From positions 806,001-870,000 of the forward strand of contig CP126195.1 in the NCBI GenBank assembly GCA_030272155.1: DNA of 64,000 nt. Reading direction: 5' to 3'. The DNA comes from Tetradesmus obliquus (Eukaryota > Chlorophyta > Chlorophyceae > Sphaeropleales > Scenedesmaceae). The notes below the pieces were generated by a model. It was not told where the DNA came from and made no database searches. It saw nothing but the letters and a program-made list of their open reading frames with translations. Made by a program: the position numbers and the translations under genes. Each line of letters opens with the position of its first letter. The first letter of the stretch is position 1. Below, piece after piece: positions 4,212 to 50,800 of the stretch.

Positions 4212-6224
4212 GGCGGTTTGTCTGGCAAGCTGCAGGGTTTGCTGCAGTGGCCTCCGAAGCTGGGCAGCAGCAGCAGCAGCAGCAGCAGCGCCCCACCTGG
4301 TGCTGCTGCAGGCAGTGGTCTGTTGCTCTCTGGGGCGGTTGACAGTGACACAACAGCAGCAGCAGCAGCAGCAGGTGGTAAGGGCAGTGGTGGTGTGGGT
4401 GGGGCTGTGTCTGGCCTGCTGCAGCCAGCTCAGGAGGCAGCACAGGCAGCACTTGGCTCGCTGGGGGATGGTGTGGCAGCGTGGAGGTGAGATATGGAAG
4501 ATCTGCAGCCGTTATAATTTTGGGTGTGGTGCTTGCATGAGCATGGGTGTATTGTATTGTATGTGTTGGTATGCAGCTGGAGATGGCGTGGCAGTTTGGA
4601 GGTGAGATGCAGGTGTTGCTGCTGTTGGCAGAGTGGTTGCTGCGTGCTGGAGTGTGTCAGAAGTGAAGATGGATGATGCTTGTGTGTTGGCGGTTCATGT
4701 CAACAGCCATGGAAGTTGCATGTGTTGACATTGCTCGTGCTGTTGTAAAGTCAAAAATCTGGTATCTGTTGTTCTTATGCATTGCAGGGACGAGCTCGGC
4801 GAGTCAGTTGCATCTGCAATTGAGGACCAGGGCCCCACAGTAGCAGCAGCTGTCGGCCTCACAGCAGCAGCAGGGGGAGCTGCTCTGCTGCTGGCCAATG
4901 TGCTGCAGCCGCTGCTTGATGGGCAGCTGGCCAGCAGCAGCAAGTTGAATGGGCTGCTGCAGCAGCTGTCACAGGCAGATGAGGCTGCTGAGTCAGCGGC
5001 GGCTGCACAGGAAGGCAGCACTGCTGCCGCTGCTGCTGCTGCTGCTGGTGATGGAGATGGAGATGGAGATGGTCGGACTACAGCTGTGGCGCCAGTTGCT
5101 GCTGCAGAGGGCGATGCAGCAGCAGCAGCAGCAGCAGCATCTGCTGCTGGTGTAGCAGCTGCTTCGCCGACAGCAGCCAAGGGTAGCAGCAGTAGAAGGA
5201 GGGTTCAACTGCTAGACAATGTTGACCTGGATGACGCCTCAGCAGCAGCAGCAGTGCCTTTAGTAGCAGGTGTGCCACGGGTTGCTGCACCTGCTGCCGA
5301 CGCATACATTGGCAGCAGCAGCGGTGCAGCGCCTGGCATCTTGTGGCAGCGGCAGGATGAGTCAGAGTCCATGCCGCTGCCTTCCCCAGCAGCAGCAGAT
5401 CCTGCCGCCGCCGCTGCTGCCGCAGCTGCTGCTGCTGCTGGCCCTGGCGGCGTCTTGTGGCAGAGAGAAGATGCTGCAGCACCCGCGGCAGCAGCAGCAG
5501 CAGTACGTCCTGTTGCTGCTGCTGCTGGAGGTGTGTTGTGGCAGCGGGATGACGTTGCAGCAGCTGTACCATTTGCAGGTGTTGATGCAGCAGGGGCAGC
5601 TACAGTATCACCAGCAGGCGGTGCTGTGCTGTGGCAGCGCCCTGACGAACAGCAGTTGATGCAGCAGCAAGCAGAGATGCCAGCATACCAGCAGCAACAG
5701 CAGCAGCAGCAGCAGCCGGACAAGCAGCAGTCCTGGTTCAGTAGGCTTTTGAGCAATGCGGAGGATGCTGCAGCAGCAGATGTCCAGCCTACTGCTGGAC
5801 AGGCACCCGCCGCTGCATGGTGGCAGCAGCCTTGGCAGCAGCAGCAGCAAGAAGGTGACTATGCAGGCTCGCCTTACCCACCACAGCCTGACCCTGTGTT
5901 GTACCAGCAGCAGCAGCAGCAGGCCCCCAGGGACCCGAAGGCTCTGTGGCCGATCATCATGGCCACTCAGTCAACGCTGTTCTCTTATGCATCATTAGCA
6001 AGCGTTGACTTCCAGGACCAGCCTGGCGCTGAGTCAGCATCCTCAGGCCTGACAGCTTCAGGACTGTCAGGACCCAGCCTGAGCCTGATCCCACCTGAGG
6101 GCCAGGCTGCAGATCCTTGGGGTACCACCCCAGCTGGGCTGGCTGCTAGTTTGGAGGATCTGGCGGCTCTGGGGCTGCTAAATGCAGAGGCACTGGCAGT
6201 GTTGCAGCCGGAGGTTGGTGTTAG

Positions 6225-6262
<38 letters not shown>

Positions 6263-7360: not shown

Positions 7361-7556
7361 TGTACTGCCGCCATCCACTGTACTGCCAGCGGCACCTCCA
7401 CTTTCTGCCAGCGGCATCACCAATGTACTGCCAGCGGCACCTCCGCTGTACTGCCGCCAGCCACTGTACTGCCAGCGGCACCTCCACTGTATTGGCGGCA
7501 GCATCACCAATGTACTGCCAGCGGCACCACCAATGTACTGCCACCAGCTACTCACT
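7361..7556. repeat. Minisatellite, ~23 bp unit
   Basis: About nine imperfect copies of a ~23-base unit with the core TGTACTGCCAGCGGCACC. Related single units recur at about 7800 and 10715-10800, in each case next to a copy of the last exon of the EGF/DxDCGG gene, so repeat and gene tail appear to have been duplicated together. Confidence 0.8.
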
Positions 7557-7683
7557 ATACCTTGGGCACACACGTCACACCGTCCCGTGTCTGATAGCAG
7601 GCACTGTTCTGCCAGCAGCCAGATGTGGTAGTACCATGGTTCACTCCACCCACACATCGTAATGAGGAGCCAATAGGCAGCCA

Positions 7684-7797
7684 CTACACCTTGGGCACAC
7701 ACGTCACGCCGTCCCGCGTCTGGTAGCCAGCTGAGCAGTCACACTTGCCGCTCTGTAGGTTGCAGTGCCCACTGGAGCATCCATAGCGGCCTCTGCA
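7684..7797 (-). pseudogene. Detached copy of the last exon end of the EGF/DxDCGG gene
   Basis: Reads (minus) CRGRYGCSSGHC through GVTCVPKV and a stop. This is nearly identical to the C-terminus of the gene ending at 10814, 3.1 kb away. It starts abruptly in the minisatellite and has no upstream exons. A shorter copy of the same tail lies at about 7551-7596. It is a duplicated gene end rather than an independent gene. Confidence 0.85.
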
Positions 7798-8249
7798 GGC
7801 CAATGTACTGCCACTAACTAGAGGCAGGCAAGTTGAGTTAAGCCGTGCTGTGTTGTCAAGTGTGGGCGTGGCGCAGGTGTGCAGCAGGAGCAGCATGTGC
7901 TGCACATGTGGGCTGTGGTTTTCGCTGGCTATTGTGAAGGAAATATGTGACTGCACCACTGACAGCACATCACGTTGTGCAGGTTGTGCTGGCTGCTGCT
8001 GCGCAGTAGTTGTAGAGCACACAGTACATGCTGCAAGCGCATGATTGCATGGGATAGCCACGTCATATGGCCGTGTTGCTGTGATGTTGCTGCTGCTACT
8101 ACCTTCGCGCCTCAGGCAGGCAGCAGTGCCGCGCTGTACATCACGCTAGACGCAGCCTAACAGCAAAGGCACATGCAAATTCTGCGATTGAGCAGGTGCT
8201 GGCATATCCATGCTGTATCTACTGCTGCTGCTGGTGGTGCTGCTACTGC

Positions 8250-8352
8250 TTTTCGTTTGTTTGTGTTTGTTACACATGGGGGCCAGGCAATTCCAGCCTC
8301 TTGAACTGGCATATCATACCAGCCAGATAGGGTTTCAAGTCCAACTCCGTCC
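8250..8352 (-). mobile_element. Retroelement 3' end, copy 1
   Basis: A ~100 bp sequence that recurs at 8793-8900 with about 95% identity by eye. Read on the minus strand it ends in GTGTAACAAACACAAACAAAC, a TGTAA signal followed by a (CAAA)-type tail, as at the 3' end of a SINE or truncated LINE. No coding capacity. Confidence 0.5.
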
Positions 8353-8789
8353 CCCACCACCATCACGACGAACAGCAAGTCTGCAGCCTCACTGCCCGCC
8401 TAGCAAAATGACCACAATGCTGCAGCAGAACGGAGTGGTCGCCGCCAAGGGCTTTAAAGAAGAGAGAGAGGCTTGTTACAGGAGAAGGCAAGCTATCACC
8501 CGAGAGTGAGTCACTTGCCCTACTTTCAGCTCACATATCGTATGAACTCGATAGCAAGCCACAAGACGCCACCAAAGAAAACTCCAGAGGCGTCTCGCAG
8601 CCCCTATCTCCCCATAAACGAACATGTACATGCAGGGCAGCAAGTGCGAAATGCAGCACGAAAAGCAGCATGTGCTCCATGCACCAGGCAGAAAGCGCAC
8701 AGGGAAGGACAAGCATGGTCCAAACAGCAAGCGGGGTGCACAAAGGTGCTGCTCACCATAAATGTCCAGGGCTTTTCGGGCTCCAGGGC

Positions 8790-8945
8790 TTTTTTGTTTG
8801 TTTGTTTGTGTTTGTTACACATGGGGGCCAGGCAATTCCAGCCTCTTGAACTGGCGTATCATACCAGCCAGGTAGGGTTTCAATTCCAACTCCGTCCGCT
8901 TTTCATTTGCATTGCATTTGTTACACGGAGGCGGTCTCCCCAACC
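8790..8945 (-). mobile_element. Retroelement 3' end, copy 2, next to a second tailed end
   Basis: 8793-8900 is the second copy of the 8250-8352 repeat with a longer (CAAA)n tail. Directly beside it, 8905-8935 shows another minus-strand end with GTGTAACAAATGC and an A-rich tail. This suggests nested insertions at one preferred site. Confidence 0.45.
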
Positions 8946-10115: not shown

Positions 10116-10813
10116 CACGCCTGCTGCCGATGCACCCTTTGATTTGAAGCGTGATACGCATAATCGAGAACAGATTACACATTCAACATTATAGAAGCCT
10201 CATAGTGAAACATCCCAGCTGTGCATTGTGCAGTACGAGCTTCTGACAGTCACTGCCTGTCTGAACATCGCCCTGTCGGCGTAGATAGACTTGAAATTCG
10301 ATTTAGTACATTTTATATTATGCCAGACAATTTGGGCAACTACAAGGCCGTTGACAGCAGGCCGCCTTTAGCATGACGGTTTTACATTGGATTCGGTGCC
10401 TTGCATGCATGCACGCCCTGATGCACAATCACAGGTGCTTCATGCATGCTTTATGTATCGAAATCACTTATAAATGCTCTCGATTGCCGTGCATGGGTCG
10501 AAATTCATCGCACAGGGATGCCGGCCCGTGTGGGCGTGCATGCATGCACGCCTTGCTGCAAGATCCGACAAGTGCCATGGCTTCATGCTGTTAACAACCT
10601 TTGATGTTACCGCTCCAAGGTTGCGGCAGTGCTCCGATTGATAGCGCATTTCTACCGGGCCGGGGCTATGGATAAGTCACCAAAGTCTCAACTTGCAACC
10701 ATATGCTATACTGCGAGCAGCCACTGTACTGCCAGCGCCACGCCACCGTCACTTTACTGCCAGAAGCCGCGCCGATTCACACAACTGCCACACCACTGCC
10801 GCCAGCCCCACTA
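10116..10813. other. Intergenic region with palindrome and minisatellite remnants
   Basis: Holds TTACA at 10382-10386 (TGTAA on the minus strand, possible poly(A) signal of the EGF/DxDCGG gene), GCATGC-rich words at about 10400-10410 and 10533-10552, and minisatellite remnants at about 10715-10800. No gene seen. Confidence 0.45.
10533..10552. repeat. Perfect 20-bp palindrome
   Basis: GGCGTGCATG followed by its exact reverse complement. A related GCATGCATGCACGCC word lies at about 10403. It could be a protein-binding site or a hairpin in a small element; no function can be assigned. Confidence 0.8.
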
Positions 10814-13051
10814 CTACACCTTGGGCACACACGTCACGCCGTCCCGTGTCTGGTAGCCGGGCGAGCAGTCACACTTGCCGCTCTGCAAGTTGCAGTGCCC
10901 ACTGGAGCATCCATAGCCACCCCTGCAGGCCTGCCCATAACCGCACAGCTTCTGGCAGTAAAACCCGCAGTCTGTATCACCTTCATACAGGTCCCTTACC
11001 TTGTTGCTGCACATCTCAGATTGGCTGACACACCTAGGGGAGCTTCCAGGGGTTAGGAAAATGAATGAATTTGCTGGGCAGCTGCAGCGCGGTGTGCTGT
11101 CTAGTGCTGAAAACACCTTGCAATCGCGGGCTTCGCAATCTGCAGCTGACTTGCAGGGCTCGCCGGAGGTGCATTTGCGTAGCCCGGGTGCTGCTCCGCA
11201 TGCCGCAATTGTTGCACCAACACGCAAACTGCTGCCAGTACCGCTGCTGCTGCTGCTGCTGCTGCTGGTTGTAGGCAAGATGTTGCCGGCCGGCACCCCG
11301 CTGTTGCTACTGCTGCTGTTGCTGCTGCTGCTGACGAGGTCAGATGCCTCTATGCATGTTTTGCCGGAAGGGTCTGGCACCTGCTGCTTTGCGTAGCAGT
11401 CAATCTCGCACAGCATGCCAGCAAAGCCGCCGCTGCAGCTGCAACGGAAGTCTGGAGCTGCGCCAGGCAACGGCTGCAGGGTTGAAGGTGCGCAAACGGA
11501 GCAGCAAAGTGTTGGCAGGCGTTTTCTATTATCATCCAAACCAGAAGCTTCGGGTGGCGAGGTGCTGGAGAGGTGCCGCAATGTGCCCTTTGCACATGGG
11601 TTGAAGCACAAGCGCCCTTGCATCCATGCAGCTGTAAGCAAGTTGCTTTTCTCCCGATGACACGTCATGACTGCCCATCACAATACCAAGTTTATTTGAT
11701 TTTATCGGCTGACAGCATCTGCAGCAGCTTCACATGTTCATCCCACAAATTGTGCACTGCAACACCAGCCGCAGCTCACCATGCATGCGCCCCTGTTGAT
11801 GCAGGGGTTGAGGATGCTGCAGGTGTTGGCCTTGTCTTGGCAGAGCGGGCCAGTAAAGGTGGTCGGACACGTGCAGCTGCAGGGGCAAGCAGACATACAA
11901 GCCATAGTTGCCAGACACATGTTAGCTTATAGGACTGGGCAAGGAGTGACCAGAAATTGCTTGCAGCTGGCACTCCATGGGCATATGACCTACAGACAAC
12001 AACCGAATCCAAGGTTTCTAACCAGACATCCAAAGTTGCCCTGCCGTCGCCTGCAGCACACCTGGCAGCATGCACGCTACAGCACACAAGCCTGGTTCAT
12101 CTGAACCGCCAACCACTCACGTGTAATCAGGCACACCGCCAGGCCTAGGCATGCAGCTGCCGCCATTCCTGCAAGGGTTGCCGTTAGCACAGGTCGTCCT
12201 GCTGCCAGTGACGGCACTGGCTGCCGCGCCGCCGCTTGCACTGGCAGTTACTGTCGTCACTGCTGCTGCTCCTGCACCACCTGCAGTTAGCGCAGCAGCA
12301 CCAGACCCTACTGCTGCTGCAGCTGCTGTTGTAGAGTTCGGCCCTCCATAGGTGCCATTCCCTGCTGTTGCTGTTGCTGCTGCTGCTGGTGGCGCCACGT
12401 CGCAGTTTGCGCCGCTGTAACCGCCGGCGCATTTGCACGTGTAGTCGGGTGTTTCAAAGTCGTCTGGCGGAAGCTGAACAGGCACACACTCGCCGCCATT
12501 CCTGCAGATCTCAGGACTCATATCACATGTGTTGAGCTCCTTTGTTTGGCAGAGCTTCCCAGCATAGCCTGGCGGGCAACTGCAAGTGTAGTCTGGCTCT
12601 TCACCAGGTGCTGCTATGCACTCGCCAGCGCCGCAGGGCGATTCTGTGTCGCATGTGCTGGGGCCATCCCTTGCAATGTTGCCTGCTAGTGGCTCTGAAG
12701 GCTCAGCAGTAGCAGTATCATTGGATGATGGTGTGCCAGTCAATCCTGCAATGTGGTCCTGCTCGCTGATCGCTGCATCGACTGCTGCATTGCTCGCCGC
12801 ATCAGCTGCTGCTGTATCAACCTCGCAGTTCTGGCCCTCAAAGCCGGCACTGCAGCTACAGGAGTAGCCTGGGCTCTGGCCTGGCTGCAGCTGGCAGCTG
12901 CCGCCGTTCCTGCAGGGGTTGCGGGGCTGGCAGGCGTTCTGCTGCTGCTGCTGCTGCTGCTGTTGATTGCCGCGCTCGGTGCAGGTCATGCCGGCCCAGC
13001 CTTTGGTGCAGTTGCAGGAGAAGTCGGGCATTTGGCCGGGCAGGGGACTGC

Positions 13052-13083: not shown

Positions 13084-16000
13084 AACACAAAAACATATCA
13101 GCGGACGGTTGTGAAGCTGGGGTGAGAGCGTTCACTGCGGACACCCTGGTTGAAGCCAGAGTGCCAGTTGTGGCAGGGTGCTGACTCAGCCAGTCAAGGC
13201 GTGCTGACTCAGCCACTCACATTTGTTACTGGAGACATGTACAGCATAAACACGCCACGCCCACTTACATGCAGGCGCCGCCGTTCCTGCAGACCGCGGA
13301 GGCAGCGAAACAAATGGACTTCGCCAACTCACACACTGCACTTACGCGCACAGATCAGGCTGCAAACACCTCTCAAACCACTTACATGCAGGCGCCGCCA
13401 TTCCTGCAAACTGATGACGCAGCGAAGCAAATTGACTTGGCCACCTCACACACTGCATTTTAGCGCACAGATCAGGCTGCGAACACGTCGCAAGCCACTC
13501 ACATGCAGGCGCCGCCGTTCCTGCAGACTGATGACGCTGCGAAGCGGGCAGACTTGACGCACCAAAACTGGGTTGCTTGATACAATATAACCACGCCGCG
13601 CCCACTTACATGCAAGTGCCGCCGTTCCTGCAAACTGATGCTGCTGCAAAACAAGTTGACTTTGCCACCTCACACATGGCTCCGCTGTAGCCCGCCTGGC
13701 AGTAGCAGCGGAAGTCCGGGCCACCCTTGCCTGCAGAAGCACATGCAGCACAGATGCAGAAATCAATTTAAGGCTTTCGAAACACAAGCAGCTGCATCGT
13801 GTGCTGTTGAGCCGGGCAGTAGCAGCGGAAGTCCGGCCCGCCCAGCAAATCACATAACATCAAGAAGGACGCCACAAGAGCTGCATTGTGTGCTGGTGTG
13901 CATAGCTGTCAGCTGTATGTGCAGGGCCGCCCTTGCCTGCAGCAGCACACGCGGTCCTGGTTCACACCCATGTGCAGCACAGAGATATAAGCGTTCGACA
14001 GTCAACCAAAGCAAGCCAGTGCAACGCCTTCGCACACGAAAGCTGGTATAAATTGAAGCTATGGCATGCTGGCCTTCGTAGAGCTGGCAGCTGCATGCGT
14101 AAGGCCTTGTGCGGCTGTGATGCACACTGTGCACTGGCTTGTTGCAGAAGCAGCGTGCATACCTGGGGTGTAATCAGGCATGGGTATACAAGCGCCGCCG
14201 TTTCTGCCTGCAGGTTTGAAGGAGCAGCACATGCCAACAGGTATCAGAGCAGCAGTTTTGAAGGTGCAGCTTACACAAGCACGCTGCATCAGGTGCAGAC
14301 ATATATGATGGTAGAGCAAAAAAACAACAGTGTTTGCGGACAGGATAAAAGATGTCATGCAACGATTTATCCACCGCAACACCCCACAACAGGAACACTC
14401 TACAGAAAAACACTGTGCAGTCTCAACTGCCAGGCAGCATCCAAGCACTAGCACACACTCACAGGGGTTTGAGACGTTGCAGGTGCTGAGCCGTGTCTCA
14501 CACAGCCCACCCACAACATTCAGTGGACAGCTGCAGTTGAAGTTGGCACTGGCATTCGCAACAGCAAAGTTCGGGAGGCATGTGCCACCGTTCCTGCAAG
14601 GGTTGGGTGCTGTGTCGCAGCGCGTGGTGCACTTCTTGCCATCTTTGCTGAGAGGGGCGCTGCTAGGGCACCCGCAGGTCTTGCTGCTGCTTGAGGTGCT
14701 GCTGGTGCTGCCGCTGGTTGTTGTGGTGGTGGTGCTGACGCAGACGCCGGTCTCACAGTCTGAGGGCACGTTGCAGAACTGCCCAAACTTGCACTTTGTG
14801 GAACAGCTGCCGCCACCTGCAAACACAGGGCAAGGGAACACGGTGTATGACTCATGTAGCTCAGCTCATGCATTAACCGTCAGGAAGTTGTCAGTATAAG
14901 TCAAACAGGATAAATAATAGGCCTGTTGAATAGCTGCGCAGCACCATCTGCTGTCCCCAACACACACCATGTAACCTGCGCAGAACTGTTGGCGCAGCGT
15001 GTGCAGCAGCATACTAGCAACTCACAGTCGACGTCGCTTTCTTCAGCATCCTTGGCACCGTTGAAGCAGAGCTGGTCTGCTGTCAGGCAGGCCGAGTTGT
15101 CGGGGCTGCAGCAGCAGAGGCGCAACAATGAATGTGTCAAGCCAACAGGTGTGATGCAATGCTGTGTTTGACACTACTAACAGCAAGAGGCACAACAAGC
15201 TGTCGATGTGTATGCATAGCACATGTGTGTGCTGACATACGGTACTGAAACTCATCATGTGGCAGCAAGAGTTGCGTTGGATCCCATTTCTGACACTGTT
15301 ATGCAGATGATGGCCACAACAACATCCTGATGTTACCGACTCTGTTACATACAAATTCAAACAGTCCCTCACCTGACAAACTGCCCCCTAGGGCACATGC
15401 AGATGCGTTGGTCGCTGTTGCACACACTGTTGACCGGCGCGCAGTCGCTGCTCTTCTTGCAAGCGTGCCCAAAGCTGCAGCCCTTGGCGCAGGTCAAACC
15501 ACAGTCAACATCAGTTTCCAGCCCTTGGTCAAACTTGCCGTTGAAGCAAGTGCCATTGCCTGTTGCTGCTGCTTCTGGTGTGAGGCAGAGGCCGCTAGGG
15601 GTGGCTTTTGAGCCAGCAGGGCAGCTGCACTTTTTGCTTTTGGTGTCACAGTTTGATGATGAGCAGTCGCTGGCCTGCTTGCAGGAAAAGCCGTTGGAGC
15701 ACTTCCAGCAGGTGCTGCCACCACTGCAGAAAACAGGAACAGATCACCAGCAACAGCGACAAGGCAGCAGGTGAAGAAAGACGGCAGTCAAGCCGCGAGC
15801 AACAGCATTGGAAGGGTGCAAGCGACACCACACACTTTCTAACGCTGCTCCTGTGGCACTACCTGCATGTGCCGGCCCGTAGCTGTCTCTTGCCTACATA
15901 CTGCGCACTGCGCAGCAGCTTCTGCAGCCCACACAGCTCGCCACAGGTCATCACAGCCCGCAAGAACACAATTTCCTATCAGGCTAGCAGATGCAGCAGC

Positions 16001-24943: not shown

Positions 24944-25768
24944 TGGTGCACCATCGCTTGGTTACGTTGCATTGTGTAGGAGTATGATACTCCAGTCAAC
25001 CAAGGAGTGGGAACCCCAAGCAGGAGCCAACGAAAGGATCATAGGGGGATAAGCTGCAGCTGGTGGCCCCTGGTGCCATGGCGGCTTAGTTGTGACCTGC
25101 AAACGGTGTAGTCAATCAATGCGTCGAACAACGGCCTGCAGTGGCTGGGGTTTGAAGCCTTTTGGCGGTGCATGCAGGCGTTGCATTCACCTACTGGCCA
25201 GCAGCGCACTTTGCTGCAGCAGTTCCAAGGTTTCTTTGCTGGCTGGCTCTTGTGGGTTTTGTGAGGTCGGTGTCCCACCAATCCCATAGTGAATATTCGG
25301 CTTTTTCTTTCCTCGATGGTTTTGAGACTTTGGTGCGTGCTGCATCCTGCGAACGTAATGCCAGCACTGACTGGCCTTGGGGCAGTGGCTTGCAGATGGA
25401 CGTTGGTCATGTCTGCAGCTGCGGCATGTGCCCCTCCAGTGACACAGCGTCACGTCGGACACACTTATGCTACTAAGATCAAACATGATGGTTACCGATG
25501 TGCTGAATGATGCGCTTGCGCGGACAGCAGGCTCCGCAACCAGGTCGCTAAGGGTGTAAGCATAGGTCGTCACAGGTCGCCCGTGTTACCACGTGCGATT
25601 TGCTGGGTGTGACTTACGGCGACCGAGTGACTACGCAGAACACGATCCACAATCGCAGGACACCAAAATGAACGTACCGATATGTTTGTTGATAGTCTCC
25701 AGCCTTGATCTGCAGCTCAGCCATGCTGCTGTTGCACCGGATTGAATGATGCTGCCGGAAACATCACC
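24944..25768. other. Intergenic region, nothing recognised
   Basis: Contains the 3' UTR of the WD40 gene (TGTAA 25555-25559) and the upstream region of the kinase gene. No supported ORF. Confidence 0.45.
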
Positions 25769-26814: not shown

Positions 26815-26861
<47 letters not shown>

Positions 26862-29800: not shown

Positions 29801-30092
29801 GATGTGACAGCTAGCAGCTCCACCAGCAAGAACCTCACCAGTGCCACTTCCTGCCTTTGTTTGTACTTGCAGCACTACATTTCGTACGTGCGGGATGTGA
29901 CAGCTAGCAGCTCCACCAGCAAGAACCTCACCAGTGCCACTTCCTGCCTTTGTTTGTACTTGCAGCACTACATTTCGTACGTGCGGGATGTGACAGTTGG
30001 CAGCTTCTCCAGCAAGAACCTCACCAGCCCTAGCAGTGCCTGGGGCACCATGGAATCCACCATGGACTCAACTCAGAGCAGTGACGCCGGCT

Positions 30093-30129
<37 letters not shown>

Positions 30130-30506
30130 TGTTGGTGCTGCACGCAGTGCTGCTCCCAGGAAGGTTGAGACTTGGCTGGTTGAGGTGAGGCAAGATATGC
30201 AGTTGAGTTGAGTTTGGGTTGCAGTTGAGTTCAGTTGGGGTTGAGTTGAGATTGAGGCCTGGCTGGTTGAGGTGAGAGTGTGCAGGATGGTACCGGCAAT
30301 GATGTGGGCACTGAGGTGGGCGCTTGTAAGATGTAGGCTCTGCACTGCAAGAGGTTCAGCTGTTGTTGGAGGGTTATGCACTGATGAAGTATATAGTCTG
30401 CTCAGGCAATGTAGGTGCAGTTAGCTCCTCTTTGATGTATGCTGCAGTCAGCTGGTTCAGTGCCTTCCAGCTGCTGTACCTCACCGAACACGCAACTGCA
30501 CTCATG

Positions 30507-30569
<63 letters not shown>

Positions 30570-32712: not shown

Positions 32713-32792
<80 letters not shown>

Positions 32793-34939
32793 GCCTGTGT
32801 CCCATGTGCAGCTTTGGCGTCATGATGTGGACGCTCTTCACCAACCAGGTTAGTGCATGTGACGTATTGGAACGCAGCGCGTGGCCTAAGCTCAGCACCC
32901 AGGCCAGCACAGCCCAGAGTCACAGCAGTCATCTGCATGGGTCATGTGACATTACATTAGACTCCTGTTGCATGTTGGCAACACAGTGGCACATGCAATA
33001 TATATATTCTGCCCTCTCCCACCGTTGGCCCGCAACACACTGCTGCTGGCTCTGCTGTCTTAGCGCCGGCAGTCAGCTTGTTACTAAAGCTGCTGCTTTT
33101 CTTTGTGGTGATTGTTATTGTGTTACGCAGCCGCCATTCAAGAAGCTGCACTACGGACAGTACTACGAGGCAATCTGCCTGCAGGTGGGTGCAACACATG
33201 CGGCAGCACAGGCCAGGCTGGCAGCACAGCACGACCTACGTGCATCATTGCTGCGTGTTGCTCAATTTGTTTGGTGGTTAACACGCCTGACAAATGCCTG
33301 CACTCACGCCCGCATGTGCACCAAAATGCTGAAGCTGATGGCTGTTTGTCTTGCCTTACCTGCTGCAGGGCTTGCGGCCGCTGATACCGGCCAACACGCC
33401 AGTCGATTACAAGCTGCTCATGGAGAAGTGAGCGGCAGCAGCACCAGCAGCAGCACCAGCAGCAGCAGCGGCAGCAGCAGCAGCAGTAGCACTCAGCATG
33501 CACAGCGCCGCCTGCTGTCACACAAAGACCCAGGGGCTGTCAGCATGCTAACAATATTACTTAGGCTCTGAGTTCAGCAGCACTTGCACACGTGCTAGGC
33601 GGTGTTGCCCGATCTGGCCGTCCACCTGCAGCAATGCGCAGCACATACAGCGCAGTGCCATACACACTGGGAGCGACACAGTTCAAACCTTTTCCAATCA
33701 GGCGCCAGGTATACAGTGGCATACATGCTTGGCAGGATCACAGTGTGCGTCTTACCGTGTCACTGCTGCCTGCTGTGTCACCGCAGGTGCTGGTCGAGTG
33801 ACCCAGCCGACCGCCCGCCAGTCAGCAGGGTGCTGCAAGCCATCCGCATCATTCCCTGCCAGTGTAACTCTTACCGTGTCACTGCTGCCTGCTGTGTCAC
33901 CGCAGGTTCTCGTCGAGTGACCCAGCAGTGAGCAGGATGCCAGCGTATCTCTTACTATGTCACTCAGGTGTCACAACCGTCACTTGTGTGTCACAACTGT
34001 GTCACCACTGTGTCACCGCAGGTGCTGGTCAAGTAACCCAGCTGACCGCCCGCGAGTGAGCAGGGTGCTGCAGGCCATCCGCATCATTCCCTGCCAGTGT
34101 AACTGTTACCGTGTCACTGCTGCCTGCTGTGTCACCGCAGGTTCTGGTCGAGTGACCCAGCAGTGAGCAGGATGCCAGCGTATCTCTTACTATGTCACTC
34201 AGGTGTCACAACCGTCAGTTGTCTGTCACAACTGTGTCACCCCTGTGTCACCGCAGGTGCTGGTCGAGTGACCCAGCCGACCGCCCGCGAGTGAGCAGGG
34301 TGCTGCAGGCCATTAGCATCATTCCCTGCCAGAGTAACTCTTACCGTGTCACTGCTGCCTGCTGTGTCACCGCAGGTTCTCGTCGAGTGACCCAGCAGTG
34401 AGCAGGATGCCAGCGTATCTCTTACTATGTCACTCAGGTGTCACAACCGTCACTTGTGTGTCACAACTGTGTCACCACTGTATCACCGCAGGTGCTGGTC
34501 GAGTGACCCAGCCGACCGCCCGCCAGTCAGCAGGGTGCTGCAAGCCATCCGCATCATGATTGATGCACGCACAGCAGCTTGCATGGAGCGGCAGCAGCAG
34601 CAGCAGCAGCAGGGGTTCGTGGGCTCTGGGGCAGCGCTTGCAAGCAGCCAAGCAGCAGCTACAGCAGCTGGTGCAGGAGCGGGAGCGACGGCAGCAGCCA
34701 TGGTCTTGCCAAATGGCACTGCCGGCAGGTGTGAAAGTTTAGATCAGGAAGCAGAAGGCGCGGCTCATGCGCTGAGCTCACACCAGCCAGCAGCAGCAGC
34801 AGCAGCAGCAGCAGAGGGCTCTGCAGAGCTTCCAACCTTGGACAGGTGCCAGTCAGCTGCAGCAGTGCTGGCAGCAGCAGATCTGATGAGGGCTTTCAGT
34901 GGAGTGCTGGACTTTCAAGTGCCTGCTGCGCAGCCCACT

Positions 34940-34971
<32 letters not shown>

Positions 34972-35494
34972 TTCCAATCCTGCTGCATCAGGTGTTCACC
35001 TGGCGGAGCAGCCTGCTGCTGCTGCTGAGGACAGTGACACTGACCAGGGCCCAGCAGCTGCTGCTGCTGCTGCTGATGCCGGCCAAGCTGCTGACACTGC
35101 TGCTGCTGCTGGGGCCAGTGCCGCTGCTGGCAGCAGATTGCTGTGCAAAGAGGACCGCATGGCTTCCAGCTTCGATAGAGGAGACAGTGACCCTGAGATA
35201 CACCCCACACCCACACTCAAAAGACCAACAGGAGCAGCAGCAGCAGCAAGTGCATTGCGGCTGCCGCCGCAGCCGCTGCAGCAGCAGCCTTTACCGGATG
35301 TTGCCTCGCCAACGCTGGCGTGTGCTGTGTCGCCTTTTGCACTGGCAGCCGACAGGCAGCCATCCAGTCAGTCGGAGGATGTGGAAGGCCCTCCTTCACG
35401 AGCCTCCAGTGTGCTGTCTCCTGGGTCTAGCAGTGCGGGCTGGAGTCACGCCAACTCGTCACATTACGGCAGCCACAGAAACTGGGTCGTCTGA
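25769..35494 (+). CDS. TKL-type receptor protein kinase
   Basis: Sixteen exons: 25769-25989, 26255-26407, 26646-26931, 27108-27203, 27544-27727, 27912-28134, 28696-28876, 29479-29541, 29966-30184, 30572-30694, 31192-31378, 32347-32392, 32812-32848, 33131-33184, 33369-33427, 34492-35494. Sum 3,135 nt, 1,044 aa. Signal peptide, an ectodomain of about 280 residues, one TM helix (about 303-325) followed by RHRRR, then a kinase domain about 405-735: GAGSFGRVY (418-426), Lys438, Glu453/455, HGNL (592-595), DLG (618-620), SHMPPE, VYSFGVMMW, DPADRP. The catalytic Asp of HxD is Asn594, which predicts a pseudokinase unless another exon copy is used. A Gln/Ala-rich tail follows. Introns hold seven clusters of exon-edge copies. 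Choice of exons 5, 9, 11 and 16 among copies is by phase and completeness. Confidence 0.8.
27436..27651 (+). repeat. 108-bp tandem copy at kinase exon 5
   Basis: Two units, starting CAG|CACCTGCTGAAC at 27436 and 27544, differ by a few bases. The period (108) is a multiple of three and the first copy is open into the second, so either acceptor keeps frame; the first would add one repeat of NSTRIC...CQLSPDA. Confidence 0.88.
28079..28470 (+). repeat. 106-bp tandem copies of the kinase exon 6 end
   Basis: The end of exon 6 with its GTGAGT donor and 70 bp of intron is repeated at 28187 and 28293, with a fragment near 28445. Period 106 bp; each copy carries its own CACAG acceptor and AAGTGAGT donor. 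Confidence 0.88.
28793..29182 (+). repeat. Copies of the glycine-loop/Lys exon end (exon 7)
   Basis: Exon 7 from AGCTTTGGGCGCG to GAGGAG|GT is repeated at about 28986-29070 and, shorter, at 29121-29181. Spacing is 193 and 112 bp. Confidence 0.85.
29780..30000 (+). repeat. 93-bp tandem copies of the exon 9 start
   Basis: Acceptor plus HYISYVRDVT coding start occur at 29780, 29873 and 29966, period exactly 93 bp (31 codons). The reading frame is open through all copies. A further copy of the exon 9 end with its donor lies at about 30257-30274. Confidence 0.88.
30844..31245 (+). repeat. Four copies of the catalytic-loop exon start
   Basis: CAG|GCGCTGCA(T/C)GA starts at 30844, 30946, about 31091 and 31192. 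The HxD position reads HGG, HGD, HGG (frame broken) and HGN in order. Only the last copy continues to the DLG motif and a donor. Confidence 0.88.
31290..32165 (+). repeat. Four copies of the DLG/activation-segment exon end
   Basis: The end of exon 11 (LGLSRLL...SLGTLSHMPP plus GT donor) is repeated near 31559, 31791 and 32071, 232-280 bp apart. Two of the copies have their own CTGGCAG acceptor. Intervening intron sequence is copied as well. Confidence 0.87.
33787..34560 (+). repeat. 235-bp tandem repeat of the last exon start
   Basis: Acceptor CCGCAG|GTGCTGGTCGAGTG occurs at 33787, 34022, 34257 and 34492, exactly 235 bp apart. Each of the first three units also has an inner copy (GTTCTCGTC or GTTCTGGTC start at 33906, 34141 and 34376), so the unit is a dimer of about 118 bp. 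The last copy leads into the long 3' exon. Confidence 0.92.
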
Positions 35495-38027: not shown

Positions 38028-39487
38028 ATGGCTAGGGACGGAGGCAGGGGTCGTGGTGGACGTGGCGGAGGAGGCAGGGGCGGCAGCAGGGGCGGAGGCA
38101 GGGGCCCTAGCAGAGGGGGAGGCAGGGGAGGAGGAGGTGGCGATGGTGGTGGCCAGGTGGTGAGTTTTCGCAGTTGCAATATTTCTTAAGCGTATGCGTT
38201 ACCGGTATGCCATCGACATAGCCTCGGCAGCGACCGCGTGCAGCCAGGTCATAGAAGCAGTAGCACCTGATCAACAACAGCAACTGCATGCCTGGCTCCT
38301 GTTTTTATCTAGTGTCGATGCTGCAGACTGCAGTACACGTTCTGAGTATTTCTGTGTTGGTGGTTTAGCTGTGCTGCAGCACGAAGCATGCTCTGGCAGG
38401 CTTCTGCAGAATACTGCAACAGCGGCAGCAGCAGCAGCACTGCACCGCAAATAGGAACGAACATGCCTGGGATTGCTTTTGTGCAACACTCCTGGCTGCT
38501 GTTATGGTCGTGTCCTGCAGGCAAGGCAAGGTGGTGGCGGCGGTGGCGCTTTCCGGCCGAGGGGTGGCGTGCAGAAAGCAGGCGGGCGTGACAACCGCCC
38601 CAGGGGAGGTGAGTCAGCAGCAGCAGCTGCTGCTGCGCGACAGCACTGCGCAGTGTTGCAGTTTACACAGCAAATGCCGCGCTGCAATTTGCACCCTTAT
38701 GCTTCAGCCTGCTGTGGCTGAGCTTGGGTACAAATAGCTGCTATGCTGTACATTCAGAGGCGAGTGCAGCACCCCTTGCCGCATGTGGGTATGGAAGCCC
38801 AACCTTACCAGCGCAAAAGCACTGCATCATGTGTGGGGCCAGCCGCACACATGTCCTTGCTTTCCTGCAAGCGTTCCCCCAGCAAGTTTTATCCGGGATC
38901 ACACGGATTTGCAGCGCACTGCAGCATGTGTTTCCATTGTCCTCCTGACTGTGTTTGCTGTCTTTCTGCCCCCGTGCGTGCACAGGTGGCGGCCGTGGCA
39001 GGGGCGATTGCACACACTCTCAGCGCACTACAGGTGCATGTAACTCTGCTGTGTACTTTCAAATGTTTTTCCGCTTGCGCACAGGTGGCGGCGGCGGCGG
39101 CGGCCGCGGCAGGGGCAGCGGGCGCGGCGGACCACGCGGCAGGGGCGGCCGGGGCAGGGGGCGCGGCGGCAGGGGCAGGGGAGACAAGCCAAAGACACAG
39201 GTGGGTGCTGTCGCACTTTCCGCGCACAGGCACAGCAGCAGCAGCAGTGGCAGCAGCGATCTGGTGCTTACAGCAGGGTCTGGGGACCCAGTACTTGGCA
39301 GCATTGTGCACCAGCAGCAGCTGCTTCAGCACTGCTGTGTCCTTGTTCCTTGGCCCGGGCTGTTTGCTACTGCATGTGTCCAGCACACGCTCAGCCGTGC
39401 TAGTTGCTGTGATGCCCACGTGCTCCCTGGTCCTGCCAGCCTCCAACGCACTCTTTTGTTTCAAACTGTGACGATGCTGTGCTTCAC

Positions 39488-44802: not shown

Positions 44803-47800
44803 GCCAGGCGCGGGTGTGCCGAGCGACCCCATCACCTTCACCTGCCTCATTGAGGCGGCGGTGCTGGCAGGCGAGACGGAGATGGCGCAGCGCGTGTTTG
44901 CGCGGGCCATGGCGGCTGGCGTGACCAGCAGCGTGCAGGTGTGCAGCAGCAGCAGCATCAGCAGCATTCATTGCGGAGCGTTTTGTGTGATCAGCAAGGT
45001 GAAGGTGTGTGCATTGCGTGTCATGACAGCGGGGTGCATTTGATGTGTTGGATGCATCCCACCTTGTGGCCAAGCACTGTCAGCACAACACGCTTACTCT
45101 GGACGTAGAGCAGTCTTTTCCGCTTGCTTCCTGCCAGCATTCCTGACAGTGTGCTGTGTGCCATGGTGTGCTGTCACTTGTGCTGCAGCTGTACACGGCC
45201 GCCATCAACGCGTGCATGGCCAACGACGGCACCAACTTTGAGGCCGCCTTTGAGATCTACGCAGCCATGCAGCGCAACGGAGTGGAGCCGGACGACCTGC
45301 TGTACGGCCACCTGATTGCGCTGGCTGGGCGCTGCAGGAAGCTGGAGGTGCGTCATTTTGTCATTTTGTGTTATATGTGTGTCACATTGAATGGTGTGGA
45401 GCCGGACGACCTGCTGTACGGCCACCTGATTGCGCTGGCGGGGCGCTGCAGGACGCTGGAAGTATGTATCGTTTTATCGCGTTGCTGTGTTTCCGTTGCA
45501 TTGTTACAGCTGTTTGTTTTTCATGCCCTGATGACGTGGCTGCTGCTGCTGCTGTAGCGAGCTGGCCTGATCAAGGACATGCGGCTGACCTCTTTGACTG
45601 AACTTGACGCTGCTGTTGCTGCTGCTGCTGCTGCCAGGTGGCGTTTGACCTGATTGAGGACATGCGGGCCAGCGGGCTCAAGCCATCCACGCCCACCTGC
45701 AGCGCACTCATGTACGCCTGCCTGCAGAACAACAACTTTGCTGCGGCGCGCAAGGTGAGCAATGAGCAGGGGCGAGCAGTGCGAGCTTGAGGGTGCGTCA
45801 GGCGCAGCAGTGTGTAATCAACACGTGAATGTAGAGAGCTGCGGCTGGTCAGCGAATGCAATAGGAGCCGCGTGTTGGGCGGTCCTCATGCTGTTGTGCA
45901 ATGGCCTCTGGTGGTATGGCCGCTAGTTCAGCATTGTTTTTCATCGTGTACCTTTTCACTGCGGCGTTTGCACGCAACGTTGCTGCACTGCTCCGCACGT
46001 CTCGGGCCGGTGTATGAGCGTACTCACATGTGTAGCTGCATTGCTGTTGCGCAGGTGTACGACACGCTGATCGCGCGCGGCGTGCCGCCCCACATCAGCC
46101 AGTACAACGCGCTCATGGAGCGGCCCGCACTAACATGCCGCTTTGTTGCTGTGCGTTCGTACCACACAGGTGTACGACACGCTGATTGCGCGCGGCGTGC
46201 CGCCTCACATCAGCCAGTACAACGCGCTCATGGAGCGACCCGTACTAACGTGCCGCTCTGTTGCTGTGCGTTTGTACCACACAGGTGTACGACACGCTGA
46301 TCGCGCGTGGCGTGCCGCCCCACATCAGCCAGTACAACGCGCCCCTTGAGCGACCCGTACTAACGTGCCGCTTTGTTGCTGTGCGTTTGTACCACACAGG
46401 TGTACGACACGCTGATTGCGCGCGGCGTGCCGCCTCACATCAGCCAGTACATACTACAGAATGCACTGACGTGCTGCATTGCTGCATTACTTCATTGCGC
46501 GCAGGTGTACGACACGCTGATTGCGCGCGGCGTGCCGCCGCACATCAGCCAATACAACGCGCTCATGGAGCAGTACGCGCTGCGCTACCAGCTGGGCAAC
46601 GTGGTCAGCCTGCTCACGGCAATGGTGGGCGGAGGCATCGCACCCAATGCCAACACTTTCAGGTGCGCAAGGAACAATCCGCAAAGGCATCTGAGGGGAT
46701 GGTTATGACACTGTTTCGATAACAATGATGCGAGCAGCGGCAGCAATGCGAGCAATGCCGCCTGTGCTTTGTTGTGAGGTGTAGGAACTGGTGGGTGGGT
46801 GGGGCGGGTGGGTGGGTGCCAGCAGTGCCAGCTGCTGCCAGTGTTCTTCTGATGCTGAGAGGGCATTTGATAGTGGCTGCTCACGGCAACGGTGGACGGC
46901 GGCATCGCACCCAACGCGAACACCTTCAGGTGCGGCGGACTCCACAGCTGCAATTCGTTTGACAATCGAAGAGTCAACTTGATTTTTGGTGCAAAGGGTG
47001 CGAGCAGCACCAGCTGCTGCCAGTGTTAGTACGTTGTACTTGGCTTTGAGGGCAGTGCTAGTGGCTGCTCACAACCAAATCTTCTGATCTCAAACCTGGT
47101 TGCTTCATCGTTGCTGCTTGCAGGATCCTGCTGCTGACCTGCCAGCGCACAGACCAGGCCGAGCTCGCATTCGAGCTCTACCAGGTCATGAAGGCTCACT
47201 GACACAGCCTTCTTCCGCTGTTGTAACTTTTTGGTGCCTTGCAGGTTCCTGCTGCTGACCTGCCAGTGTACTGATCAGGCCGAGCTACCATTGCTTCTGC
47301 AGCCATAAAACCAGATCCCCTGACCTTAACCCTACCTGGGTGCTTCATCTTTGCTGCTTGCAGGATCCTGCTGCTGACCTGCCAGCGCACAGACCAGGCC
47401 GAGCTCGCATTCGAGCTCTACCAGGTCATGAAGGCTCACTGACACAGCCTTCTTCCGCTGTTGTAACTTGTTGGTGCCTTGCAGGATCCTGCTGCTGGCA
47501 TTCGAGCTGTACCAGGTCATGAAGGCTCTCTCACTAAGCCTTATGCTTTTCCCTTCTGATACACTGCAGGATTCTGCTGCTGACCTGCCAGCGCACCGAC
47601 CAGGCAGAGCTGGCATTCGAGCTGTACCAGGTCATGAAGGCGCGCGGGCTACAGCCCCGCCTCAACAACGCACACTCCATCTGCTACACCCTGCTCAAGG
47701 CCTGCTACAACCGCATCCGCCGCGGCTGGCGGCCCAGCGGCTACCCGCCAAAAGCAGAGCCTGCAGGACCCTACAGCTCCTTGGGAGCCTCAGGCTTGAG

Positions 47801-50800
47801 GCCAGCAGAGGCACGGCAGCTGCTGCATGTGCTGGAGCCAGCGGTTGCAGCAGCTGCTGCAGCGGCGGGTGCGGCAGGGGCTGCTGCGGCGGGCGCGGGA
47901 AGTGCGGCAGGCGGGCGGCAGGCGCAGCAGGGGCAGCATGCGCGGCGCTACTCGTTTGTGGACAATGCGGAGAACATCAACTGGCCGCTGCTGGCGCTGA
48001 GCACATACAGGTGGGAGGAGCCTTAGGGCTTGGAACGCTGTGTGGCTGCTTTACGGCGGTTGTGGAGTATTTTTCATGCGTACAACGGGTGCACAGCATG
48101 CATGTCTGTGTCTCGCTCTCAGGCGCAGTTGCAAGCGTGGACAGCTGTCTGGCAGTGTTGTTGTCTCGCAGCAGGTGCAGTGCCATGAAAACGGCCGCAC
48201 CTCGCAGTTGTCGCCATCACACCGTTCGAACCTCTTGTAACATGTTACATGACAACTTTCAAACTTGCAGGGACTTCATCAGCTGGGGCTACAAGCCGCA
48301 CCTGGAGGTGCTGGACAAGCTGCTGGCCTGCCTGCGCCTGCAGCCGCCACGGCAGCAGCAGCAGCCCTCCGCAGACGTGCAGCGCTCGCAGCAACTCCAG
48401 GCGCAGCTGCAGCCGCTGCTGCCAGGTCAGGCGCAGGCCATGCTGCAGGAGCAGTGCGCTGTTGATGACGACCCCTGCAACCAGCAGCAGGCGATCCTGC
48501 GGGAGCTGGCAAACCCTGGCGAGCGGCGAGGTTTAGGCGGCGGCCTGGGCGGCGGTTTAGGGCTTGCAGGAGGGGCCGGCGGCTCAGGGGAGGCGGGCTT
48601 GCAGGAGCGGCCGTATGAGGTGCCTTTTGACAAGCGTGCAATGGATGCTGTGCTGGACGCGATCAACATGGGGCTGCTGCCCTCAATGAAGGTGAGGATG
48701 ATGCTGTGGTGTAAGATTTGGTTATGCTGCTTTGTGGCCAGTTTGATCATTTGCTGTGGACGCAATCACAACATGGGACTGCTGCCCTTGATCAAAGGTG
48801 AAATCAGGCTTTTAGCTTCGTGGTGGTTTCCTGCGAAATGCCTGCACAGCACCCTCGCCTCGGCTGCGCCTTCTATGTGACTGTCATGCAAGCACCTTAT
48901 CACGTTCTGATTACTGTTGCTGCTGCCTCTGCTGCAGCTCGATGTGCCGCTCACGATTGACATGCGCTGCCTCCCGCCCATGATTTCCCAACGCTGTTGC
49001 TGCTGCTGCTGCGTCTGCTGCTGCTGCTGCAGTTGGATGTGCCGCTCACTGTGGACATGCGCTGCTTCCCGCCCATGGTGGCGGAAGCCTACGTACATGT
49101 GCTCATGCAAACCCTTGAGGCCCGAGGCCAAGCAGCAGCAGGCGGCAGCGACAGCGCGAGGCAGCGCATCGTGGCTCAGCCGGTGCGGCTGGTGGTGCCT
49201 CCCTTTGACCACAACTACGTGATGTGGCCCAGCTACGTGGCCAAGCTGTTTGTGCACTACAATGAGCAGCTGCTTGAGCGACAGGTGAGGGGCTTGGTGA
49301 CATTTTTTGTGGCTTTGTTGTTGAGCTAGTCACCTTGACACCATGCATGTCTGCAACTTGTGCGGGAGTTGCTCGACAGTCGAGCTGCCCACTGCACAAG
49401 CTGCTACCTGCGCTACAGTCTGCCTGCGCCTGGTCCACGTCTGACAACACCGTTGCTGCTGGTGTTGGCTTTGCCGCTGCAATTGCGTACTGTCATTTTG
49501 CAGGCGCAGCTGCGAGCTGAGGCAAAGGCAGAAGCTGTGCTCTTGACGGCTGCAAGTGTGCCCATGCTGACACCGCTGCCCGCTGCGGTCTTTTGTGCAA
49601 CTGCTTACTATAATCTTGCAGGCGCAACTGCGCGCTGAGGCAGAGGCAGCTCGCTGGCGTGCAGCAGCACTGGCAGCGCGCCGCTTTAATGGAGACGATT
49701 CAGATGACGAAGACATGCCAGATGACCAGCTCAGCCTCAGCTTCGGAGCCGGGAGCGTTACTAACAACGTTGCTAACGGCGATCAGGGCGCGGGCAGCTC
49801 GGTGCGGCAGCAGCTGCAGCAGCAGCTGCAGCAGCGCGCGATGCAGCAGCAGCAGCAGCAGCGGCAGCGCTCAGGGTACCAGGCCGGCGGCAGCTGGGAG
49901 TCTCTGGACTCCTTGGATGAGGCTACAGCCGAACAATACAACAGCGCATCTGCGAGTGCAGCAGCAGGCCCCCCTGGCACTGCTACGCTTGCAGCTGGCA
50001 GGTACCTAGCAGGTGCCATTACTGGCCTCGCAGTAGCTGCTACGTTCCGGCGGCTGAAGGCATATGTGCGTGTGGATGCTGCGGCGGGTGCATTGAAGCT
50101 TGAGCCGCGGGAGATTAACAGGTGGCTTGGTGCAAAGCTGGGATATGAGGAGGAGCGGCGGCGGCTGGCTCGAGAGGCCGAGATGGCGGCGGCTGGCTAC
50201 AGCAGCACCACCAGCTACAGCAGCACAGCAGCATACTACCAGCAGCATGTGTACGTGCAGCCGCAGCAGGGCGCGCCATGGATGAAGCAGGGACGGCAGC
50301 AGCAGCAGCAGCAGCAGTTCTGGCAGCAGCAGCAGCAGCAGCAGGGCGCGGAGCAGCCGCAGCAGCAGGCTGCAGGTGCAGCAGAGGCTGCAGCTGCGCC
50401 TGCGGCACAGCAAGACCAGCAGCAGCACACCGGCAGTGATGCCGCGCCAGCCGCTGCTGCTGCTGCAGCAGGCAGGCCTCGCAGCGCCTCGTTTAAGGGC
50501 AAGCCAGGCTCGCGTTCAAACCCTGCTGAGCAACTTTTGGGGCTTTCGGGGCCGCCAGCTCACTTTGGCGTGCCAGGCAGGGGCAGACCGGCACTTGATC
50601 AGCAGGCTCGTAACATTAGGCTGGGGCTGGGCTCAACAGCAGCAGCAGCAGCAGGTGCGGCTGCAGGGCAGCAGCAGCAGGCGGCTGGCGACAGCAGCAG
50701 CAGCAGCGGCAGTACCAGCAGCAGTGGCAGGGTGCGGCGAACCAGGTCGAGTGCGCCACCCGCCGCTGCTGCTGCTGCTGCAGCAGCAGAGCAGGCTGCA

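Follow-up and report, generated by a model that had tools for sequence, protein, structure and literature searches.

The 64-kb stretch of Tetradesmus obliquus DNA analysed here, called the window below (GCA_030272155.1, contig CP126195.1, 806,001-870,000, forward strand), carries clusters of short direct duplications in its EGF, WD40, kinase and MRL1 genes. Duplications were found with TRF and self-BLAST after short-period repeats had been masked, and the gene models behind our intron and exon calls are our own predictions; two gene-finder runs that invented micro-exons in CAG repeats were discarded. A stricter threshold left 57 matches in the window, grouped into 17 clusters and all of them direct. 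Steps between neighbouring copies are mostly 91-145 bp or about double that, with some outliers, and the copies differ from one another by substitutions, as an earlier note on this DNA had said. That note counted about 20 clusters in six genes; those in the EGF, WD40, kinase and MRL1 genes stand, and those in the LWQR and FoP genes proved weak or unsupported. The first cluster claimed is a 30-nt match at 4464/4579 (self-BLAST, E=0.02), and in the FoP gene self-BLAST gave no direct pair less than 2 kb apart between 34.6 and 45.3 kb, the own-intron copy test described below adding a single donor-side match (intron 38609-39084). The RNF25-type gene lacks a cluster, as claimed: self-BLAST gave no direct pair less than 2 kb apart between about 14.6 and 24.1 kb.

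The EGF gene, on the minus strand by its gene model, holds an array of 117-bp units at 13240-13843 (TRF, self-BLAST). The remaining features are on the plus strand. The WD40 cluster (24142-24872, self-BLAST) has steps of 99-142 and 214-261, and the predicted introns 24186-24392 and 24447-24816 each contain copies of their own exon edges. A pair with 92.6% identity and an offset of 108 lies at 27412-27613, and 2.66 copies of a 106-bp unit at 28071-28352, within a direct duplication listed as 28071-28484 (all TRF and self-BLAST). A kinase exon tail with its donor (28791-28876) is followed by copies at 28984-29071 and 29121-29191 (cluster 28791-29191, self-BLAST). Beyond it are 2.72 copies of a 93-bp unit (29775-30027, TRF), a complex cluster with steps of 101-102, 145, 247, 264, 496 and 776 (30839-32188, self-BLAST) and, at the start of a kinase exon, an array that steps by 119 and 235 (33741-34557, TRF and self-BLAST).

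In MRL1, the tail of exon 45189-45347 with its donor (45276-45349, in the open frame) recurs within the intron at 45390-45463 (93% match, offset 114, self-BLAST; full duplication 45276-45463), and this copy is skipped in the MRL1 open frame and in the annotated protein P0002. Three full 115-bp units and a partial fourth, bearing a 3' splice site and the start of the next exon, are found in the intron at 46052-46451 (TRF, self-BLAST; full duplication 46049-46571). Exon and spacer parts are about equally similar among units 1-3, the spacer comparison with the partial fourth unit fails, and P0001 reads one unit as coding. The exon at 46505-46662 (self-BLAST, open frame) has its start copied upstream in this array and its tail (46610-46662) copied downstream, with a donor, at 46877-46934 (offset 267, self-BLAST; full duplication 46610-46934). 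Copies of the 3' splice site and start of exon 47570-48010 (open frame) lie upstream of it at 47073-47497, in steps of 121 and 236 (TRF, self-BLAST; full duplication 47073-47656). Self-BLAST further gave a weak copy of exon tail 48654-48691 with its donor at 48757-48801 (offset 103, E=0.007; 48654-48801), a copy of the start of exon 49033 at 48941-48982 (offset 95; 48941-49077) and one of the 3' splice site and start of exon 49622 at 49478-49531 (offset 118; 49478-49649).

We use "decoy" for an exon-edge copy with a splice site that sits inside an intron. The eight MRL1 exons form one open frame when every decoy is skipped; a gene-finder model that retains some decoys as exons also stays open, and an open frame alone is therefore no proof that decoys are skipped. 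P0002 skips the MRL1 decoys, and the P0001 and P0002 annotations differ by one decoy. Across the aligned region, two MRL1 proteins from T. obliquus share 99% identity. Scoring 40 of 73 candidates revealed no further MRL1 copy in the assembly, the query matching elsewhere only through its CTG-repeat stretch.

Exon edges copied into introns

We scanned 314 kb in total, made up of the window and 25 further 10-kb samples. A donor-side exon edge was copied into its own intron in 29 of 244 introns, compared with 4 of 732 length-matched foreign introns and 3 of 244 own introns that had been reverse-complemented; the corresponding figures on the acceptor side were 30/244, 5/732 and 5/244. Altogether 47 of the 244 introns bear a copy of a flanking exon edge. 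For spaced pairs, 118 were tested and 111 counted (seven were dropped as no gene was predicted nearby), and a donor was present in both copies at the matching edge in 29 and an acceptor in 32, the means in 300 random placements being 0.9 and 4.7. The claim that the repeats take an exon edge together with its splice site thus holds beyond chance. Most pairs do not duplicate a whole exon with both splice sites, and the donor list (35 pairs) and acceptor list (51 pairs) have 10 pairs in common. The decoys retain good splice motifs: 15 of 25 donors (60%) and 18 of 26 acceptors (69%) score above 3, as against 4% and 8% of random intron places.

Introns with copies on one side or on both have median lengths of 425 and 436, respectively, compared with 255 for those without copies, longer introns also offering more room for copies. 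It is unlikely that the exon edge alone is copied, given that copy-bearing introns are some 170 nt longer in median. We also considered the possibility that the units act as introns, but exons starting with GT were not significantly in excess (9/30 at acceptor copies versus 39/214, p=0.14).

Differences between copies fall between a neutral and a coding pattern. In the 48 of 86 pair tests that could be used (ungapped, frame known; two pairs enter twice) there were 153 synonymous and 146 nonsynonymous differences, or 51% synonymous, where neutrality gives 28.6%, and 44.5% is the value if the exon is perfectly conserved and its copy neutral. Young pairs, drawn from the same set with one duplicate removed (the other stays in the older class), showed a ratio of 31:15, which is more synonymous than a neutral copy permits (p=0.0015).

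Step, orientation and placement

Short direct duplications were detected in 20 of the 25 further samples, five showing none, and in the 314 kb there were 270 direct matches less than 2 kb apart compared with three inverted matches at any distance. Distances between direct matches peak at 100-140 bp and none is below 77. The 59 intron copies tell the same story: 40 lie 70-160 nt from the real edge (median 109, sd 18), where uniform placement would put 28% (p=3e-10), 13 lie at 211-300 nt, near double, and one below 70. The near-constant period, with doublings and outliers, that the earlier note described is therefore upheld, and periods are not spread evenly. At offsets below 160, longer copies go with shorter spacers (rho -0.83 for 20 pairs of donor type and -0.57 for 38 of acceptor type), as though it were the step that stays constant; the cut at 160 contributes to this, and over offsets up to 400 the correlation is gone (-0.13, -0.03). 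A duplication process with a characteristic step is supported.

Serial tandem copying, as the earlier note put it, does not describe most cases. Only 31 of 161 pairs are contiguous, the other 130 being spaced rather than head-to-tail, and intron homology was undetected in most spaced pairs tested. Of the contiguous arrays, which reach up to about ten units, 25 of 31 have fractional copy numbers (0.2-0.8 unit over), so that the founder looks like exon-spacer-exon and not like two full units.

Junctions are favoured 1.6-fold (65 observed versus 40.6 expected when the same spans are thrown uniformly); introns gave 14 versus 15.4, exons 5 versus 16.5 and intergenic DNA 14 versus 24.9. Similar steps also occur within exons, within introns and in intergenic DNA. 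Of the proposal of one process acting on exon-intron junctions, the characteristic step survives, and the junction excess does not establish specificity. Purging in exons, together with longer detectability beside a conserved exon copy, could explain much of the junction excess. Where both copies lie inside one predicted exon, all 11 offsets are divisible by three, or 9 of 9 without two misread decoys (L002 3631 and window 46397), a result partly biased in that the finder favours open frames and several of the nine pairs come from the same repeats. On the whole, the phenomenon is largely real and spread beyond the window.

Where homology ends, and how the copies might arise

Spaced pairs ended within 12 intron nt in 46 of 78 cases (20.1 expected), and the number of intron nt included peaks sharply at about 2-8 in every identity class. 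An apparent hard limit of 15 intron nt was an effect of the search bounds; wider bounds brought out a tail and left the 2-8 peak in place. In 25 of 78 pairs the match took in more than 25 intron nt, and some of these may be chance motifs in repetitive exons. Intron homology reached p<0.05 in 23 of 85 pair tests (7/26 at 93% identity or more, 16/59 below). Flanking intron is nevertheless on average somewhat more alike than controls: acceptor pairs, for example, gave 0.49-0.55 versus 0.26-0.28 over intron nt 9-12, the medians were 0.33 and 0.38 versus 0.25 and 0.27, and 20 of 86 pair tests had more than 50% identity versus about 1.5 expected. Part of the spacers is therefore homologous, some perhaps weakly. 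Within young arrays, spacers are about as similar as exon parts, the exceptions being the last step of the array at L019 5798 and, in MRL1, the partial fourth unit. The eight older arrays compared, each with some two to three copies, have identities of 0.86-0.94 in their exon parts and 0.75-0.81 in their intron parts, roughly a two-fold difference. Many-copy array rows with an identity of 1.0, in which sequence was aligned onto itself, were left out.

The computations show that one step is preferred, that the copies are direct and spread across the genome samples, that decoys have splice motifs and one gene an open frame without them, and what form the arrays take. We favor a genome-wide process that makes direct duplications at a step of about 110 nt and on which splicing and reading frame act as filters, and give this best reading about an even chance of being correct. 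Recurrent mutation would produce short direct duplications across the genome, seldom below 80 nt and often doubled in step, and selection would filter them, exons keeping only steps divisible by three and introns nearly all. A copy that spans a junction would be tolerated in that the exon is still correctly joined through its real splice site, and the copied edge would be a mostly neutral, decaying decoy. Arrays may then grow from existing copies by unequal exchange between exon-edge copies, and the step itself may reflect repair or replication synthesis that restarts about 110 nt out of register. What this explanation alone leaves unaccounted for is that the spacer is usually without a clear match to either flank. 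Plain tandem duplication would copy intron and exon alike, and the rarity of intron homology therefore counts against it; with subsequent decay, it cannot account for everything, as young pairs show significant intron homology just as seldom as old ones. Rapid divergence of introns is no remedy, given the similarity of spacers to exon parts in young arrays and the merely two-fold difference in older ones. The synonymous excess of young pairs and the fractional copy numbers of arrays are further points against the duplication reading.

Alternatively, a broken end might invade the homologous gene of another allele or lineage, copy about 110 nt and be rejoined; with exons similar and introns not alignable, the copied edge would match and the adjoining intron would not. 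We consider such out-of-register repair from a diverged template rather unlikely. It fits with homology that tends to stop at the coding edge whatever the age of the pair, with pairs that end near a stop codon and not at a splice site (L010 4001/4207, L011 1039/1174), with splice signals of near-real quality in both copies, with the 31:15 ratio, and with a tandem gene pair (L017) whose members match at 84% identity over one stretch and then fail to align over about 200 nt. In addition, a related Scenedesmus is reported as likely diploid (PMC7955037). However, the alleles would need nearly identical exons and unrelated introns, whereas the older arrays show only the two-fold difference, two MRL1 proteins are nearly identical, and no second MRL1 copy appeared among the candidates scored. 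The 2-8 nt peak in every identity class and the many spacers without significant homology would alternatively suit an RNA-processing event or intermediate that supplies the template, the edge being copied up to the splice site. Similar steps away from splice sites and inside exons, the pairs with more than 25 intron nt (some maybe chance motifs) and the copies near stop codons make this improbable, and we know of no chemistry that yields splice-aware copying of exon edges. We are equally doubtful of a splice-aware or exon-anchored process that repeatedly puts exon edges, copied as far as the splice site, back into their own introns at a distance of about 110 nt and joins them to unrelated but functional-looking intron ends; if it existed, introns would lengthen in discrete quanta and come to hold ladder-like series of decoy splice sites.

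The splice scores of the decoys, the synonymous bias of young copies, the unit that P0001 codes through and the finder's open model with some decoys could all be taken as signs of functional alternative exon edges under selection. We find this quite improbable, as the overall 51% synonymous is well below that of conserved coding sequence, the other end of the copies usually lacks a splice site, and P0002 skips the decoys. An assembly artefact of merged haplotypes, which unmatched flanks resembling haplotype switches might suggest, is hardly credible: many copies differ by 5-25% in a largely neutral pattern, arrays reach about ten units, and a decoy is also present in P0001, whose accession series differs from that of the OEZ86 proteins and which probably comes from an independent assembly.

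Intron growth and known systems

Our results point to recurrent short duplication that lengthens introns and leaves decoy splice sites. Because 47 of 244 introns carry copies, mostly at the preferred distance, intron growth could be traced as discrete, datable events within one genome. It also becomes testable how splicing tolerates competing near-identical splice sites, what sets the 110-nt step and why the two MRL1 annotations disagree on one decoy. The mean intron is 462 bp in T. obliquus, compared with 270 in Chlamydomonas and 230-302 in three further members of the Sphaeropleales (PMC5966456), and exon-edge duplication may be one reason for the long T. obliquus introns. The titles and abstract openings of the green-algal intron literature listed described neither exon-edge copies nor a fixed duplication step.

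The arrays seem to expand by unit, as intronic minisatellites do, but here each locus has units of its own, anchored on the exon edge next to them. Introner elements cause recurrent growth of intron sequence across a genome, and that likeness is evident; however, no element shared between loci turned up at the window's clusters, none of the 18 inter-locus matches (E<=1e-8, 314 kb) falling inside the listed clusters. Known plant tandem duplications that arise from staggered nicks and end joining are about 100 nt, direct and head-to-tail. The direct step of about 100 nt is alike, whereas the T. obliquus founder looks like exon-spacer-exon with an unmatched spacer.

There is precedent for intron gain by tandem duplication, in Drosophila from exon sequence with a proto-splice site (PMC2891723) and in potato (PMC4974935). 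The likeness lies in short, local direct duplications at splice sites with a unit at least as long as a small intron. In the T. obliquus cases read we found no new intron position, and two head-to-tail copies of a whole unit, as expected for intron gain, are not the rule among the pairs (130/161 spaced) or arrays (25/31 fractional). As for gain from a duplicated unit with an internal AG|GT, where the new intron would run from the GT of one copy to the AG of the next, the MRL1 copies lie inside larger introns, but P0001 takes one unit as extra coding sequence. In T. obliquus, unlike in these precedents, it is existing introns that gain decoy exon edges, in several events per gene, with a preferred step and at many loci.

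Exon-edge duplications in the window and across the genome

The exon-edge duplications are real and widespread in this genome, and their description is firm within the limits of our home-made gene models and of the 314 kb covered by the window and the samples (0.3% of the genome). The source genome comprises 104.66 Mb in 17 contigs, with the window at C5:806001-870000. TRF, together with self-BLAST of the window after short-period repeats had been masked, gave pairs in direct orientation in four genes (EGF, WD40, kinase and MRL1); a stricter threshold left 17 clusters with 57 pairs. The earlier note had claimed clusters in these four genes and in two others, where the LWQR pair proved weak and the FoP gene was without BLAST support, and it correctly set apart the RNF25-type gene, in whose region self-BLAST found no direct pairs. 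Most window steps are 91-145 bp or about double. Such pairs also occur beyond the window: among 25 samples of 10 kb (20 at pre-fixed positions and 5 from a random list), duplication pairs were present in 20 and absent in 5. Across the 314 kb there were 270 direct matches less than 2 kb apart (not independent, many lying in arrays) and 3 inverted matches at any distance, and offsets peaked at 100-140, with a minimum of 77.

Other repeats were also seen. Very many CAG/CTG/GCA runs occur across the whole window, and the gene finder reads them as exonic poly-Q, poly-A and poly-S. Outside the clusters, 7683-7801 (in the region 7553-7801) matches 10813-10931 at 92%, stretches inside 8256-8897 match sample L003, on another contig, at 95-100%, and 60528-60730 matches sample L017 at 94%. 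The protein predicted at 60528-63779 (-) has RNase H and PCIF1_WW matches and, on our reading, would be retroelement-like. In sample L008 an array without a predicted gene (1-1035) has steps near 191 bp, unlike the step of about 110 nt elsewhere.

Gene models and the MRL1 gene

Gene models came from a self-written hidden-Markov gene finder that was trained on the same DNA and checked against one gene, MRL1; it recovers sharp splice motifs (AG/GTGAG and TGCAG/G). With all decoys skipped, the last eight MRL1 exons form a single frame of 965 codons including the stop, and the finder's own model, which retains some decoys as exons, is open as well. Exon-edge copies lie in five of the seven introns separating these exons (one copy, at 48757, is weak). 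The spliced protein is 100% identical to the annotated T. obliquus protein P0002 across the 600 residues searched, and P0002 skips the decoys. Its identity to P0001, from another T. obliquus annotation, is 96% by local alignment; P0001 also carries one of the decoys, as an additional repeat of 24 residues, an indication that this copy is not confined to the present assembly. For the conceptual kinase at 22099-35494 (+), the best 120 of 321 hits included no close T. obliquus protein, the top hits being near 50% identity; decoys may have broken the annotation, or the joined conceptual protein may be wrong.

Splice sites, spacers and the step

Splice sites were scored in 111 spaced pairs that lie within predicted genes or close to them: both copies had a donor at the matching edge in 29 and an acceptor in 32, against means of 0.9 and 4.7 over 300 random placements. 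A second scan, made without splice-motif selection, covered 244 introns of 80-1500 nt with each flanking exon at least 45 nt long. Own-intron copies were found for 29 donor and 30 acceptor edges (47 introns altogether), as against 4/732 and 5/732 in foreign introns of similar length and 3/244 and 5/244 in own introns reverse-complemented. For 20 of the 29 donor copies and 15 of the 30 acceptor copies, the match stopped precisely at the exon edge. Where it reached to within 8 nt of the edge, 15/25 decoy donors and 18/26 decoy acceptors scored above 3, compared with 4% and 8% of random intron positions. In motif-selected pairs, the pyrimidine tracts of both copies are nearer those of real acceptors than those of random intronic CAG (0.73 upstream and 0.69 downstream; 1.40 and -1.33, respectively).

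Of 161 pairs, 31 are contiguous and 130 are spaced, and intron sequence beside the copies was homologous at p<0.05 in just 23/85 pair tests (7/26 at 93% identity or more). Flanking intron sequence was on average somewhat more alike than in controls, so a minority is clearly homologous and some of the others may be weakly so. Both copies have a good splice site at one column in 78 spaced pairs; of these, 46 included no more than 12 intron nt, where 20.1 would be expected, with no effect of identity (p=0.17), and 25 included more than 25. A remainder of 0.2-0.8 unit, mostly 32-84 nt or about one exon-edge length, was left over in 25/31 contiguous arrays, and in the young arrays checked the inner spacers matched one another about as well as the exon parts did. 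The founder thus appears to consist of two exon edges separated by an unmatched spacer.

The steps are not evenly spread, a point that the earlier note had proposed to check. The distance from the real edge is 70-160 nt for 40 of 59 intron copies (median 109, sd 18), 161-210 nt for 2 and 211-300 nt for 13; 3 copies are farther away and 1 is closer than 70. Under uniform placement, 28% of copies would be expected at 70-160, 18% at 211-300 and 15% below 70. Below an offset of 160, longer copies go with shorter spacers (rho -0.83 and -0.57) and copy length is uncorrelated with offset; up to 400 the first relation is gone and copy length grows with offset (rho 0.31 and 0.41). Support for a constant step is therefore confined to the single-step class, and the cut at 160 itself contributes to the anticorrelation.

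Origin and fate of the copies

The earlier note envisaged a process acting on exon-intron junctions. With one pair taken from each of 103 clusters and the same spans thrown uniformly as expectation, junctions are indeed in excess (65 observed, 40.6 expected), but there are also cases within introns (14, 15.4 expected), exons (5, 16.5 expected) and intergenic DNA (14, 24.9 expected), and at gene edges (5, 5.6 expected). Pairs wholly within a single predicted exon had offsets divisible by three in 11/11 cases, or 9/9 once two decoys misread as exon (L002 3631 and window 46397) are removed, a result in which several pairs come from the same repeats and which the finder's preference for open frames favours. 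Location and frame agree better with a general process on which reading frame and splicing act as filters than with one directed at junctions. Pairs of similar spacing also occur at coding ends (L010:4001-4276, L011:1039-1243, L002:7866-8173, L017:7925-8152 and L024:1207-1446, all in genome samples); one copy sits where the predicted coding sequence ends, and its partner falls mostly or entirely outside the gene model. The matches in L010 and L011 extend to a stop codon.

The copies do differ by substitutions, as had been claimed: 299 differences were counted in 48 of 86 pair tests, 153 synonymous and 146 not. Given the observed transition excess, the expected synonymous share is 28.6% under neutrality and 44.5% for a neutral copy of a perfectly conserved exon. 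Older pairs (122:131) do not depart significantly from the latter (p=0.13), and pairs of at least 93% identity show an excess (31:15, p=0.0015). Decoys thus seem mostly to decay, and the young-pair excess hints that the differences arose under coding constraint, as would follow from a diverged template or from early use as an exon.

None of the papers listed by our literature searches describes exon-edge copying like this. We favor a general process that duplicates about 110 nt out of register, with selection acting as a filter. Copying from a diverged template is the main rival to out-of-register duplication, or else a refinement of it, and would give young pairs whose differences had accumulated under coding constraint.
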